From the NCBI GenBank assembly GCA_017502305.1, contig JAFVVG010000014.1:1-64000 (forward strand): DNA of 64,000 nt. The letters run 5' to 3'. The position numbers and the translations under genes were made by a program. Within the stretch, counting starts at the first letter, position 1; every line of letters starts with the position of its first letter. Below the pieces are notes generated by a model that ran no database searches, was not told where the DNA came from, and worked only from the letters and a program-made list of their open reading frames with translations. The stretch comes from Clostridia bacterium (lineage in GTDB: Bacteria > Bacillota > Clostridia > Christensenellales > Aristaeellaceae). Below, in pieces: positions 5,380 through 10,871 of this stretch.

Positions 5380-6573
5380 TTACCAGGTTTCGCAGGCATC
5401 CTTGTAGAAGGCATCGAGGGCTTCCTTGGTGGGGAAGTTAGCCACATACATCTGGTTGCCCATGGCGCCGGAGAGGGCATCGGGGATGCGGCTTACCATG
5501 CGCATCTGGCTGCGGTATTTGTCCATCAGCTCCTGGTGGGAAAGCTTGAAGTTCTTGCCGTCGCGGCGGCCGGCAAAGGCGCAGAAGTTCTTCTCTCCGC
5601 AGGGCTTGAGGGTGGAATCGAAGGCGATCATGTCAGCGTAGATCTTGTATACGTCGGTGGAGTTGGCAAAGTTCATCATATCCGGGGAGAAGCCGCCGCA
5701 GGGGCGCATGTTGACCTCCAGGGCAACCACGTCGCCCTTTTTGCCCATGTGGGGATGATCGGCGGTGAGACGGAAGAACTCGAAGTGCACAAAGCGGTTC
5801 TTTACGCCGAAGGACTTCACCGTGGCACGGCCGGCCTTGCGGGTGTCCTCGGGCAGCTCGTTCACAATGTAGTAGATGGAATTGTCGCCGGTGTTCACCA
5901 CATCCATGATGGAATTGGGGGTCACGTTGCCGGTTTCGAAAATGGGCTCGCCCTTGCTGTCGATGATGGCGTCGTAGCTGTTCACCTCGGCGGTGATGAA
6001 CTCCTCCATGATGTAACTGACATGACGGTCCATATCGGCCAGGAAGGCACGGAGGTCGTCGTCGTTCTTGAGCTTGAAAGTGCTGGAAGCGCCTACGCCG
6101 TTATCGGGCTTGACAATGACGGGCCAGTTCACTTCGTCAATGAACTTTTTGCAGCCTTCGAAATTGTCCACGATGTGATAACGGGCGGTGGGGATGCCCA
6201 CGGCCTGGTAGTAGGGCTTCATCTTGGACTTATACTTGATGCGCTCCATGTCCTCTACCTGGAAGCCGGAGGTGATATGGAAATCGGTGCGGAGCATGGC
6301 GTCACGCTCCAGCCAGTATTCGTTGTTGCTCTCCAGCCAGTCGATGCGGCCATACTTGCTGATGAAGAAAGCCACGGCGCGGTAAACCTCGTCGTAGTTT
6401 TCCATGGAGCCAACCTTATAGTATTCGTGGAGGTTCTCCTTCAGCTCGGGCAGAAGGGTATCGTAGGGCTGATCACCCACGCCCAGCACACGAAGGCCGT
6501 TGTCCTTCAGGTGCTTGCAGAACTGCCAGTAGTTGGTGGGAAAGTTGGGAGAAATGAAAACAAAATTCTTCAT
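5380..6573 (-). CDS. ATP-grasp ligase (carbamoyl-phosphate-synthase-like)
   Basis: A 397-residue ATP-grasp protein. Residues 1-110 form a Rossmann-like pre-ATP-grasp domain (FVFISPNFPTNYWQF). The ATP-grasp core contains WPVIVKPDNGVGASST (around 150-165), an EEFI segment, and the Mg2+-binding end VALEVNMRPCGGFSPD (around 290). ATP-grasp enzymes activate a carboxylate as acyl phosphate and join it to an amine or thiol. The substrate is unknown. It is the last gene of a three-gene operon behind two esterases, 15 bases after the middle gene, with an AAGGAAG ribosome binding site. The neighbourhood suggests a small biosynthetic or tailoring pathway in which one enzyme makes an amide or ester and two others cleave one. 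That pathway is inference. Confidence 0.8.
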   Translation of the reverse strand: MKNFVFISPNFPTNYWQFCKHLKDNGLRVLGVGDQPYDTLLPELKENLHEYYKVGSMENYDEVYRAVAFFISKYGRIDWLESNNEYWLERDAMLRTDFHITSGFQVEDMERIKYKSKMKPYYQAVGIPTARYHIVDNFEGCKKFIDEVNWPVIVKPDNGVGASSTFKLKNDDDLRAFLADMDRHVSYIMEEFITAEVNSYDAIIDSKGEPIFETGNVTPNSIMDVVNTGDNSIYYIVNELPEDTRKAGRATVKSFGVKNRFVHFEFFRLTADHPHMGKKGDVVALEVNMRPCGGFSPDMMNFANSTDVYKIYADMIAFDSTLKPCGEKNFCAFAGRRDGKNFKLSHQELMDKYRSQMRMVSRIPDALSGAMGNQMYVANFPTKEALDAFYKDACETW

Positions 6574-6588
6574 GATGATTCTTCCTTT

Positions 6589-7335
6589 TTACAGAATGTG
6601 GGGGATGTGGTAGGTGGCCTGCTTGTACCACCAGTCCCAGTCGTGCTTCACGTCGTGGCCCCAGATATCGAACCACACGCCGATTCCTTTGCTCTCGCAG
6701 ATGCTTTTGAGCTGGAAGGTGGTTTCAGGGATCTCCCAGGGGCCCTGGCCAACAACAATCACGGCCTTGTGGTCGTTGTACTGGCGGATGTAGGGGTGGT
6801 CGCCGGGCATGCCGGCCAGGTAGTGCACGGGGGAGTTGCGGTAGACTTCTTCATCCATGTAGCCGGGGAAGCCATATTCGGAGGAGAAAATGCCGGAAAG
6901 GGCCAGCAGGCCGTCGAACACATCGGGGTAGCGGAAGTACAGGTTGGCGGCGTGGGTGGCGCCCAGGCTGCAGCCGAAGGTGATGATGCCCGGTGTGCCG
7001 CTCCAGCCGTTGCGGTCGTTGGTCATGGCCTGGATGAAGGGCACAACCTCGTTGCGGATGTAGGTCATCCACTGCTCGTGGCGGCGGATGCGCCAGTAGG
7101 CGTCGTAGGTGGCGGAATAGGTCTCCAGGTCGAGGGTGTCGATGGCGAAAACCATGCACTGACCGCTCTCGATCCAGGGGGCCCAGACGTCGGTCATTTT
7201 GTAATTCTCAAAATCGAAGAAGCGGCCATCCTGGCAGGGGATGAACAGCACCGGTCGACCGGCGTGGCCCCAGACCTTGATCTCCATTTCCCTGTTCAGG
7301 GAAGGGGAATGCCACTTGGTGTAGTATGTCTGCAT
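6589..7335 (-). CDS. alpha/beta-hydrolase esterase (COG4947-like)
   Basis: A 248-residue cytoplasmic alpha/beta hydrolase. The nucleophile elbow is G-C-S-L-G with Ser123, and the C-terminal WGHDVKHDW segment (around 225) offers the catalytic His. The aromatic-rich N-terminus (YYTKWHSPSLNREMEIKVWG) is typical of the small COG4947 esterase family, which is distinct from the neighbouring esterase. The start follows GGAGGAATTTC. It lies 12 bases after the upstream esterase gene and 15 before the ATP-grasp gene, so the three are co-transcribed. Substrate unknown; no lid or membrane segment is seen. Confidence 0.8.
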   Translation of the reverse strand: MQTYYTKWHSPSLNREMEIKVWGHAGRPVLFIPCQDGRFFDFENYKMTDVWAPWIESGQCMVFAIDTLDLETYSATYDAYWRIRRHEQWMTYIRNEVVPFIQAMTNDRNGWSGTPGIITFGCSLGATHAANLYFRYPDVFDGLLALSGIFSSEYGFPGYMDEEVYRNSPVHYLAGMPGDHPYIRQYNDHKAVIVVGQGPWEIPETTFQLKSICESKGIGVWFDIWGHDVKHDWDWWYKQATYHIPHIL

Positions 7336-7347
7336 GAAATTCCTCCG

Positions 7348-8115
7348 TTAGTCCCGCTGATACAGCAGGGTGTTCATGAAAAAGGGAATCTGTTCTTCCC
7401 AGCAGGCTTCGCAGTGGTCGCCGTTGGGCACGATGCGGCTGGTCAGCAGCACACGCTTAAGCATCAGGGCTTCCACCACCTTGGTATACTTGATGCGCAT
7501 ACCGTCGTGGTTACCCATCTCACGGGAGCCGTAGTCCATGTAGATCACGGTGTCTTTGGCCATGTCGGCGTTTCGGATGAGATCCACCAGGCGCTTGTTG
7601 GCAAACCATACCGAGGGGGATAGACAGGCGGCTTTGGAGAAAACGTCGTTATAGGCAGCGGCGGCATAGAGGCTCATCAGTCCGCCCATGGAGCTGCCGG
7701 CGATGTAGGTGTTTTCCCTTTCGGGCATGGTGGGATATGTTTCGTCGATCACAGGCTTGAGCGTATTCACCAGCCAGTCCATATAGATTTTTCCCTTGCC
7801 GGTGATGCGGCCCAGGCGTTTGTCCACGAAGGAGAAGGGAGCGTACTCCTTCAGCCGGTCGTGATGCTTGCCGTGGTTGCATTCCACCGCCACGATGATC
7901 ATGGGAATGCCGGTTTTCTCCATGTATTCACGCATGCCCCAGGACTTGCCATAGGTGGCATCCTCATCGAAGAAAACGTTGTGCCCGTCGAACATATACA
8001 GCACAGGAAAGCGGACGTCGGGATTTTTGCCGGCAGCCTCCGGAAGATACACATAGACGCTGCGCTTCTTTTTGCCGGAGAGCTGGGGAATGGTAACCGG
8101 CCACTTTTCGATCAT
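7348..8115 (-). CDS. esterase of the Fes/IroE/esterase D-like group
   Basis: A 255-residue alpha/beta hydrolase with YVYLPEAAGK near the start, VLYMFDGHNVF (about 38-48), nucleophile elbow GSSMG (Ser132), a DYGSRE segment and a late NGDHCEACWEEQIPFF carrying the likely catalytic His. This pattern is that of the COG2819/Fes group, which includes siderophore and acyl-ester hydrolases. No signal peptide. It is the first gene of the esterase-esterase-ATP-grasp operon, 12 bases ahead of the second esterase. The ATG at 8115 is chosen because AAGAGGT is seven bases upstream; the ATG at 8121 would abut the ribosome binding site. A palindromic candidate operator lies in its 5' leader. Confidence 0.8.
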   Translation of the reverse strand: MIEKWPVTIPQLSGKKKRSVYVYLPEAAGKNPDVRFPVLYMFDGHNVFFDEDATYGKSWGMREYMEKTGIPMIIVAVECNHGKHHDRLKEYAPFSFVDKRLGRITGKGKIYMDWLVNTLKPVIDETYPTMPERENTYIAGSSMGGLMSLYAAAAYNDVFSKAACLSPSVWFANKRLVDLIRNADMAKDTVIYMDYGSREMGNHDGMRIKYTKVVEALMLKRVLLTSRIVPNGDHCEACWEEQIPFFMNTLLYQRD

Positions 8116-8137
8116 ATGCATGACCTCTTATGGTGTA

Positions 8138-8154
8138 TTGGACAAAAAGTCCAA
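8138..8154. promoter_or_regulatory. 17-bp perfect palindrome, candidate operator of the esterase operon
   Basis: TTGGAC-AAAAA-GTCCAA is a perfect inverted repeat just downstream of the operon's -10 box and 17-23 bases before the start codon. The placement fits a repressor site. The cognate regulator is not encoded next to it. Confidence 0.5.
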
Positions 8155-8159
8155 CGTTT

Positions 8160-8188
8160 ATTTTACCACAAAAAAGATGCAGGCACAA
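8160..8188 (-). promoter_or_regulatory. promoter of the esterase/ATP-grasp operon
   Basis: Minus strand TTGTGC (8183-8188) and TAAAAT (8160-8165) are 17 bases apart, with a TG extended -10. The -35 lies inside the terminator hairpin of the upstream trp import operon, so the two elements share sequence. Confidence 0.55.
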
Positions 8189-8204
8189 GGTTTTGTGCCT
8201 GCAT
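8168..8204 (-). terminator. Rho-independent terminator of trpXYZ
   Basis: ATGCAGGCACAA (complement of 8193-8204) pairs with TTGTGCCTGCAT (complement of 8177-8188) across a 4-base loop, followed on the minus strand by C then six T. A strong 12-bp stem. Confidence 0.85.
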
Positions 8205-8224: not shown

Positions 8225-8998
8225 TCAGTTGCCGCACTCGATGGAAATGGAGTTGAAGATGGAGAGCAGGTCGTCGACCTTGGTCTGCTTCTTCTCTTCG
8301 CCGCCTTTGTCCAGCACGATCTGCCCCTGATGCATCATCAGCAGGCGATCGCCGTATTCCACCGCGTGGCGGAGGTTGTGGGTCACCATCAGGGTGGTGA
8401 GGTTCTTCTCGCGCACGATCTTGTTGGTCAGCTCCATGACGATCTCGGCGGTTTTGGGGTCCAGGGCGGCGGTGTGCTCGTCCAGGATGAGAAAGTCGAT
8501 GGGCGTCATGGTGGCCATGAGCAGCGCGAGGGTCTGCCGCTGGCCGCCGGAAAGATTGCCCACGGGAATGCCCAGCTTATCCTCCAGGCCCAGGCCCAGG
8601 GGAGCCAGCATATCTTTGTAATCCTGGATGCGGGCCTTGTTGGTGCCCCGGGTCAGGCCATAGGGCTTGCCCTTGTTGTCCGCCATGGAGAGGTTCTCCA
8701 GGATGGTCATGGTGGGACAGGTGCCCTTGGCGGGATCCTGATACACGCGGCCCATGCGGCGGTAGCGCTTGAACTCCTTCATTTTGGTGATGTCCTGGCC
8801 GCCGATGAGAATTTTACCGCTTTCCACAGGAATAGTGCCGCAGAGAATGTTCAGCATGCTGGTTTTGCCGGAGCCGTTGGAGCCTACCACGGTGACGAAG
8901 GAATGATCCTCGATGCTCAGGGAGAAATCCTGGAAGAGCAGCGTCTCATGCACGGTGCCGGGGTTATAGACCTTGCTGATGGACTGAAACTCAAGCAT
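8225..8998 (-). CDS. trpZ: tryptophan ABC importer, ATP-binding protein
   Basis: A 257-residue ABC ATPase: Walker A GSNGSGKTSM, Q-loop MGRVYQDPAKGT, signature LSGGQRQ, Walker B FLILDEH, and H-loop VTHN. It belongs to the COG1101 group that pairs with COG4120 permeases and COG2984 binding proteins. The ATG at 8998 overlaps the end of the permease gene by 8 bases; a longer frame to 9037 would run deep into the permease and lacks reason. Specificity for tryptophan is inferred from the Trp T-box in front of the operon. The gene ends in a strong terminator. Confidence 0.85.
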   Translation of the reverse strand: MLEFQSISKVYNPGTVHETLLFQDFSLSIEDHSFVTVVGSNGSGKTSMLNILCGTIPVESGKILIGGQDITKMKEFKRYRRMGRVYQDPAKGTCPTMTILENLSMADNKGKPYGLTRGTNKARIQDYKDMLAPLGLGLEDKLGIPVGNLSGGQRQTLALLMATMTPIDFLILDEHTAALDPKTAEIVMELTNKIVREKNLTTLMVTHNLRHAVEYGDRLLMMHQGQIVLDKGGEEKKQTKVDDLLSIFNSISIECGN

Positions 8999-9866
8999 GG
9001 ATGCGCACCTTCTTCCTCTTGGCCTGGCCTGCCACAAGAATCAGCAGGAACAACACAGCGGTGATGAGTTTCATGTCCGTGGCTTCAAGGCCCATCGAGA
9101 TGGCAAGAGACACGCAGGCCTTGTACAGGATGGAGCCGATCAGAGCCATGGTGGTGCTCTTCATGAAGGTCATGTTCTTGAACAGGTTGGTGCCGATGAT
9201 TACACTTGCAAGGCCGATGACCATGGTGCCGGTGCCCATGGAGATATCAAAGAACCGCTGCTGCTGGCACATGACCGCGCCGGCCAGGGCCACCAGGGCG
9301 TTGGCGATCATCAGGCCGATGATCTTCACGCTGCCCTGATCCTTGGCCAGGGTGGTGACAACGGAGGCGTTGTCGCCGGCGGCACGGAGGAGATAACCTG
9401 CCTTGGTCTTCAGGAACAGATCCAGGAGCAGTTTGGCGATCAGGGTGATCAGAAGGATCAGGATGAGGGTGGAATAATCCGCGATCCAGTCCGGAAGCGC
9501 CTTGGTGAAGCTGTTGCGGAAAAGGGTTTCGGTGCCAAAGATCGGTACATTGGCCTTGCCGGCGATGCGCAGGTTGACGGAATACAGCGCCGTCATGGTG
9601 ATGATGCCGGAAAGCAGATCGCGGACCTTGCACTTCACGTGGATAAAGCCGGTGACCAGGCCTGCCAGAGCGCCGGCAACCATGCCGCAGAAAAGCGTCA
9701 GCGCCGGAGGCATGCCCTTGAGCGTCAGCACAGCGGAAACGGCGGCGCCCAGGGGGAAGGAAGAATCCACCGTCAGGTCCGGAAAATCAAGAATACGATA
9801 AGTGATCAGAAGCCCCAGGGCCAGAATGCCGTAGATGAGACCCTGTTCAAGGATGCCGAGGATCAT
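8991..9866 (-). CDS. trpY: tryptophan ABC importer, permease
   Basis: A 291-residue hydrophobic protein with about eight membrane segments, starting ILGILEQGLIYGILALGLLITYRIL. The DLTVDSSFPLGAAV and GLANALVALAGA-like regions are typical of the COG4120 branched-chain-type permeases that act with TrpX-like binding proteins. Polar basic C-terminus (KRKKVRIHA). It lies 30 bases after trpX and overlaps trpZ, so the three form one transcription unit. It forms the membrane channel of the importer. Confidence 0.85.
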   Translation of the reverse strand: MILGILEQGLIYGILALGLLITYRILDFPDLTVDSSFPLGAAVSAVLTLKGMPPALTLFCGMVAGALAGLVTGFIHVKCKVRDLLSGIITMTALYSVNLRIAGKANVPIFGTETLFRNSFTKALPDWIADYSTLILILLITLIAKLLLDLFLKTKAGYLLRAAGDNASVVTTLAKDQGSVKIIGLMIANALVALAGAVMCQQQRFFDISMGTGTMVIGLASVIIGTNLFKNMTFMKSTTMALIGSILYKACVSLAISMGLEATDMKLITAVLFLLILVAGQAKRKKVRIHA

Positions 9867-9896
9867 GGGAATTACCTGCCTTTTGTTGATGTGGTT

Positions 9897-10871
9897 TTAC
9901 TGGGGCGTCACGTCATTGGCACGATCAGCCAGGTCGGCGGGCAGTTCAATGCCAAACTGCGCCATGGCTGTTTTGTTGACATACAGGTAGGAATTGGTGA
10001 TCAGCTCAAAGGGGATCTCGCTGGCCTTGGCTTCGCCCTTGAGCACCTTGGCGGCCATGCGGCCGGTCTGGCGGCCCAGCTCCAGGTATTCCAGGCCCTC
10101 GGCGGCCACGCAGCCCAGCTTCACCTGCTCGATCTCGCTGCCGAAAACAGGCTTGCCGGCTTCACCGGCCATTTCCAGCACCATGGCCAGATAGGAAACC
10201 ACGGTGTTGTCCGTCAGGTTAGAAAGGCAGTCCACCTGGGGAAGGAGGGAATCCAGGGCCAGGGGAATGTCAGCGCCGGCGGAGATGCCCTTGGCCACGA
10301 TTTCGAAACCGTAGACAGGAGCCAGCTCGTTGTACATATTCAGAGGCAGGGTGTTATTGGTTTCGCTGGTGACATACAGGATGCCGATTTTCTTGGCGTC
10401 GGGCATGAGTGCACGGATCATCTTCAGCTGGGCTTCCACGGCCAGCAGGTCGGAGGTGCCGGTAATCTGGCCGGGGTTGGTGCCGTCAGCGTTGGCGAGG
10501 GCAGCGCCTACGGGATCGGTAATGGCGGTGTAGATCACAGGCACTTCTTCGTCCTGGGCATAGTTGAAGGCGGCCTGAGCAGCAGGGGTAGCGATGGCGC
10601 AGATCATATCGCTCTTGGGAACAAGCACCGATGCGATCTGGGAGGCAATAGCCATATCGGTCTGAGCGTTCTGCAGGTTGAAGGTCACGTTCTGGCCCTC
10701 GATGAAGCCTTCCTCGGCGAGGCCTTCGATGAAGCCTTCGCGGCAGTTGTCCAGGGAGCCATGTTCGGCAAACTGAATGATGCCGATGTTGATCATATCA
10801 TCGGCCAGGGCAGGGGACGCCAGGGCGAGGAGCATCATCAGGGAGAGGATCATTGCGGTCAGTTTCTTCAT
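9897..10871 (-). CDS. trpX: tryptophan ABC importer, substrate-binding protein
   Basis: A 324-residue COG2984-family binding protein with an N-terminal signal peptide ending ASPALA before D24. There is no Cys in the cleavage region, so it does not look like a lipoprotein. The mature part shows the two-lobe periplasmic-binding fold (NIGIIQFAEHGSLD; VIYTAITDPVGA; KKIGILYVTSE). It is the first gene of trpXYZ and sits directly behind the T-box terminator. Ribosome binding site AGGATGG precedes the ATG. Trp as the ligand follows from the regulatory RNA, not from the protein alone. Confidence 0.85.
   Translation of the reverse strand: MKKLTAMILSLMMLLALASPALADDMINIGIIQFAEHGSLDNCREGFIEGLAEEGFIEGQNVTFNLQNAQTDMAIASQIASVLVPKSDMICAIATPAAQAAFNYAQDEEVPVIYTAITDPVGAALANADGTNPGQITGTSDLLAVEAQLKMIRALMPDAKKIGILYVTSETNNTLPLNMYNELAPVYGFEIVAKGISAGADIPLALDSLLPQVDCLSNLTDNTVVSYLAMVLEMAGEAGKPVFGSEIEQVKLGCVAAEGLEYLELGRQTGRMAAKVLKGEAKASEIPFELITNSYLYVNKTAMAQFGIELPADLADRANDVTPQ

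Follow-up and report, generated by a model that had tools for sequence, protein, structure and literature searches.

The window analyzed here is a stretch of 64,000 nucleotides from a Clostridia bacterium of the family Aristaeellaceae, within which three closely packed genes encode two esterases (herein EstA and EstB) and an ATP-grasp ligase. The features of the locus, listed in the direction of the genes, are as follows.

8177–8204, minus strand: hairpin terminator between the trio and the ABC-transporter genes 5' of it
8160–8170, minus strand: extended −10 element TGTGGTAAAAT upstream of EstA, read from the sequence and with its pattern conserved in relatives
8138–8154, minus strand: TTGGAC-TTTTT-GTCCAA palindrome, close to where the transcript is expected to start (fold of −10.7 kcal/mol for 39 nt)
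7348–8115, minus strand: EstA gene, first of the trio, intact ORF (alternative start at 8121)
6589–7335, minus strand: EstB gene, second of the trio, intact ORF
5380–6573, minus strand: ATP-grasp ligase gene, third of the trio, intact ORF of 397 aa
5342–5372, minus strand: strong GC-rich hairpin 3' of the ATP-grasp gene, with a 13-bp stem and a short T tail (fold of −29.0 kcal/mol)

The genes run in the order EstA, EstB, and ATP-grasp, separated by spacers of 12 and 15 bases, with a purine-rich Shine-Dalgarno-like stretch 5' of all three starts. As judged by eye, none of the three N-termini carries an apparent signal peptide, in agreement with an earlier note on this DNA. The hairpin beyond the ATP-grasp gene is probably a terminator common to the trio and a convergent GH2 gene. 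Upstream, on the same strand as the trio (8225–10871), lies an ABC transporter (ATPase, permease, and PF04392 binding protein) resembling a TrpXYZ importer, with the binding protein scoring 234 bits against TrpX (cutoff 390). An uptake operon that includes this transporter was considered and rejected, as a terminator separates the two and their same-orientation adjacency is limited to the closest relatives; a link between the trio and the GH2 gene was dropped on the same grounds. With spacers of 12 and 15 bases and a leader of approximately 40 bases, there is no room in the operon for a RiPP (graspetide) precursor gene, and the PADLOC models of anti-phage defense match none of the three proteins.

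A standard scan detected no sigma-70 match over the operon start. Of 66 relatives, 42 nonetheless have the pattern TGTGnTAnAnT in the 100 bp preceding EstA (shuffles predict 0.14), as opposed to 4 of 75 upstream of EstB and 0 of 79 upstream of the ATP-grasp gene. This distribution, frequent 5' of EstA and rare or absent 5' of the other two, supports a single promoter for the three genes. The earlier note had described three close-packed genes behind one promoter, as against independent promoters for each; what is found is a terminator-bounded unit with a single conserved promoter-like element 5' of EstA. The palindrome near the expected transcript start probably represents either an operator or a hairpin in the 5' mRNA. 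At four loci of relatives (L002, L004, L005, and L018), the arms upstream of EstA co-vary (TTGGAC..GTCCAA, TTGGCA..TGCCAA, GGCGG..CCGCC), a pattern more suggestive of a conserved hairpin in the 5' mRNA than of an operator sequence. A role for the TTGGAC palindrome as the operator of a regulon was rejected, given its single copy genome-wide.

To follow the trio in relatives, 80 loci were taken in which the ATP-grasp proteins are 71 to 95% identical; nearly all are from gut Clostridia, most of the host organisms are herbivore-gut bacteria, and the carriers include the cultured gut bacteria Flintibacter muris and Oscillibacter valericigenes. Upstream sequence of 2.6 kb or more is available for 70 of these loci, and 66 of them hold the full trio in unchanged order, EstA directly 5' of EstB (a count that takes in the EstA genes of L052, L057, and L068); the exceptions are L022, L051, and L062, each without EstA, and L078, without EstA and EstB. 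The flanks are reshuffled between loci while the trio stays, and purifying selection acts on all three genes (dN far below dS). No other gene family adjoins the trio beyond a few loci, and it has no transporter, regulator, carrier protein, glycosidase, or secreted esterase as a conserved companion. The lack of a conserved transporter argues against an uptake operon; together with the lack of a conserved regulator or carrier, it makes an intracellular origin or use of both substrate and product probable. The trio is thus a real, conserved, self-contained functional unit and, on the question of whether it might be confined to this strain, the neighborhood check proposed in the earlier note reveals conservation across many genera.

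Some loci contain genes inserted within the operon (GH-like, histidine kinase, GNAT, and ankyrin; named by eye), as in three related loci (L058:6687-7487, L070:871-1674, and L079:7166-7969), where an ankyrin-repeat-like gene separates the EstB and ATP-grasp genes. Being mutually unrelated, these genes were taken as insertions and set aside as functional clues. Carriage by phage was also rejected, as no relative was found in viral contigs and neither EstB nor the ATP-grasp protein has a PHROG match.

The wider distribution was surveyed in 398 genomes from Bacillota and 60 from relatives, with other phyla reached via plasmids. Across the 398 Bacillota genomes, the ATP-grasp profile has matches in 13 and the EstB profile in 10, every one of which is among the 13 (Fisher p = 1e-17, uncorrected for relatedness); among the 60 relatives, the ATP-grasp gene is present in 28 and EstB in 26, with all 26 nested (Fisher p = 5e-15, likewise uncorrected). 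EstB was never seen without the ligase gene in these approximately 450 genomes (phylum sample plus relatives) and, as such, most likely acts in the pathway of the ligase. The distance matrices of EstB and the ligase also correspond across 18 loci (Mantel r = 0.92, p = 0.0002). The two genes also remain neighbors in distant members, where their arrangement varies (EstB first, ligase first, or divergent) and EstA is frequently missing; nothing in the flanks of these distant loci recurs in more than 3 of the 61 neighbor proteins scanned. The pair is further found on plasmids or replicons of Peptoclostridium and of the rhizobia Pararhizobium and Sinorhizobium. The ATP-grasp gene occurs alone in some genomes (L104, L106, and L115); EstB is thus dispensable in certain contexts. 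The core of the unit is the pair of EstB and the ATP-grasp enzyme.

Three individual loci deserve description. On an 809-kb replicon of Peptoclostridium acidaminophilum (L130:5566-10833), two DAHP-synthase genes bracket the pair, which is also adjoined by a gene annotated as a tryptophan-rich sensory protein; a link to aromatic biosynthesis via the DAHP-synthase genes was rejected, as it is unrepeated among the 61 scanned neighbor proteins. On a plasmid of Massilia litorea (L135:6875-10176), a 31% identical ATP-grasp gene, without EstB, follows an aminotransferase and a methyltransferase gene with gaps of approximately 1 to 10 bases, in what looks like a small biosynthetic cluster. Finally, a genome from the family of the source organism (G420) carries three ATP-grasp copies (C40, C59, and C79), two of which have an EstB partner.

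The AlphaFold model of the ATP-grasp protein (pLDDT 90) displays a three-domain ATP-grasp fold that matches RizA (Z = 29.8 over 360 residues, rmsd 4.2, 17% identity) and BL00235 (Z = 29.5), with the other folds listed (PurK and biotin-carboxylase types) at Z scores of approximately 26 or less. The ATP/Mg residues K155, E190, E265, E286, N288, and R290, assigned by motif, show at least 92% conservation across 31 far homologues. The protein falls just under every Pfam cutoff (PF13535, 24.3 bits versus a cutoff of 27) and reaches no NCBIfam family cutoff. ATP-grasp ligases convert a carboxylate to an acyl phosphate, which is then attacked by an amine. With L-amino-acid ligases as the nearest fold and the ATP/Mg residues intact, amide formation would be the most likely chemistry of the enzyme; given the weak family match and the low identity to RizA, the protein may instead carry out carboxylase-like or other ATP-grasp chemistry.

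EstB is a member of PF00756 (39.5 bits; Pfam cutoff 22) for which the NCBIfam search returned no match. Its GCSLG motif agrees with the nucleophile proposed previously (Ser123), and S123 and H231 are kept in far homologues. The protein carries a conserved C-terminal signature, WGxDVxHDWxWW; homologues of approximately 33% identity on Rhizobium and Thiodictyon plasmids are without this signature, without GQGxWE, and without the ligase. Among the matches listed for the EstB model (pLDDT 95), the nearest are the feruloyl esterases BT_4077 (Z = 21.9) and Bacint_04212 (Z = 21.8) of gut Bacteroides, with S-formylglutathione hydrolases (FrmB, esterase D) in the same band (Z of 20 to 21.5); the fold of EstB thus does not give its substrate.

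The feruloyl esterases could point to the detoxification or salvage of plant esters, whereby dietary conjugates would be hydrolyzed intracellularly by the two esterases to release a carboxylic acid, phenolic or otherwise, which the ATP-grasp enzyme would then couple to an amino acid so that it can be disposed of. Such a role would suit the mostly herbivore-gut hosts, the CE1/IroE esterases among the matches of EstA, and the two aromatic-pathway DAHP-synthase genes flanking the Peptoclostridium pair. However, S-formylglutathione hydrolases score alike, the trio lacks a conserved glycosidase, transporter, or secreted esterase, the pair is also found in soil rhizobia, and DAHP synthase recurs at no other scanned locus; we thus consider this role unlikely. 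The same structural comparison could instead suggest thiol or thioester repair, with the ligase making a peptide-like thiol or carrier from which esterase-D-type hydrolases would cut S-acyl adducts, akin to glutathione synthetase and S-formylglutathione hydrolase. Glutathione is made by ATP-grasp enzymes, and the fold of EstB lies near FrmB and esterase D (Z of approximately 21); with no dehydrogenase or thiol-pathway gene conserved nearby, and no NCBIfam match for EstB, this explanation is nonetheless quite improbable.

EstA scores higher against PF00756 (80 bits, 3e-22; Pfam cutoff 22) and contains the motif GSSMG, the nucleophile of which is Ser142 when numbered from the Met at 8115, correcting the earlier assignment to Ser132; S142 and H234 (the serine in GxSxG and a C-terminal histidine) are kept in far homologues. 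The two esterases had been called unrelated. They indeed lack pairwise BLAST similarity, but both lie above the PF00756 cutoff, making the term an overstatement. EstA is gone from many distant EstB/ATP-grasp pairs, and further copies are found elsewhere in some genomes; it is a frequent yet dispensable third member. Its matches to the enterochelin esterase PRK10439 (1.7e-9) and to IroE-like chains would be expected of a siderophore-type metabolism, in which a Fes-like EstA opens an ester siderophore, but 37.1 bits against an NCBIfam cutoff of 222, the dispensability of EstA, and the lack of any siderophore transporter or synthetase conserved with the trio render this highly improbable. Equally hard to sustain is co-location by descent alone, i.e., genes with different jobs inherited or moved together, for which the relatedness of the sampled genomes and the insertions between genes at some loci could speak, but against which the trio persists while its flanks reshuffle, the pair persists across phyla despite differing gene order, and no EstB without the ligase was seen in the approximately 450 genomes.

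We therefore favor the reading, with a probability of roughly 0.45, that the trio constitutes a self-contained cytosolic small-molecule pathway composed of an amide-forming ligase, a dedicated EstB hydrolase, and, where present, EstA. The ATP-grasp enzyme would use ATP to form the acyl phosphate of a carboxylic acid and join the acid, thus activated, to an amine, most likely that of an amino acid, a step modeled on the L-amino-acid ligases RizA, BL00235, and BacD. EstB would serve as a dedicated serine hydrolase, or an acyl-transferring relative thereof, that acts on the ligase's substrate or product by cleaving or transferring an ester. Where a Fes/IroE-type EstA is also encoded, this additional esterase would broaden or complete the EstB step. 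The genes form a unit in which EstB is present only with the ligase gene, the two co-evolve, and the catalytic motifs and folds are intact; the amide chemistry, the ester step, and the action of all three proteins on one metabolite are what we infer. The earlier proposal that a single ligase and its hydrolases share a pathway accordingly has strong support for EstB, given its co-occurrence and matching distances, and weaker support for EstA, which is often absent and also found elsewhere. As modes of action, the earlier note had raised synthesis with editing or uptake with remodeling; either may hold, with the lack of a conserved transporter arguing against an uptake operon. More tentatively, a minimal pathway of two or three enzymes, common among gut Clostridia and extending to Alphaproteobacteria, might produce an undescribed amide-linked metabolite via the cooperation of an α/β-hydrolase with an ATP-grasp ligase, e.g., through ester transfer or trimming on the ligase product.

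The interest of this orphan unit lies in its tight conservation, its self-contained makeup, and its occurrence in gut bacteria that have been cultured. Its small size could allow the product to be found by heterologous expression of two or three genes in the laboratory, and this product could extend the metabolites known from gut Clostridia. The component enzyme families are familiar, while the ligase–hydrolase module itself is apparently undescribed: a search of open-licence papers found no published description of the trio or its pathway, in line with the earlier remark that no described pathway has this exact set.

Among known systems, one published link between an esterase and an amino-acid-type ATP-grasp ligase is a secreted animal protein with a GDSL/SGNH-type esterase and a TTL-type ligase, which is not homologous to the trio as a system. 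Fes/IroE-like esterases are among the PDB sequence matches of EstA (BES, 2qm0, the best, and IroE-like 3gff), but with E-values of 3e-8 and weaker, and with EstA far under the enterochelin-esterase cutoff. The L-amino-acid ligases RizA (4wd3), BL00235 (3vot), and BacD/YwfE (3vmm) match the fold of the ATP-grasp protein over its whole length (Z of 24 to 30) and are the closest solved structures among the matches listed, at 14 to 17% identity; these are dipeptide synthases without a described partner hydrolase of the EstB type. The feruloyl esterases BT_4077/Bacint_04212, S-formylglutathione hydrolase/esterase D, and FphF/FrmB share the full-length α/β-hydrolase fold and GxSxG serine with EstB at 13 to 19% identity; the EstB subfamily differs from these PF00756 esterases in possessing its own WGxDVxHDWxWW signature and in being tied to an ATP-grasp gene.
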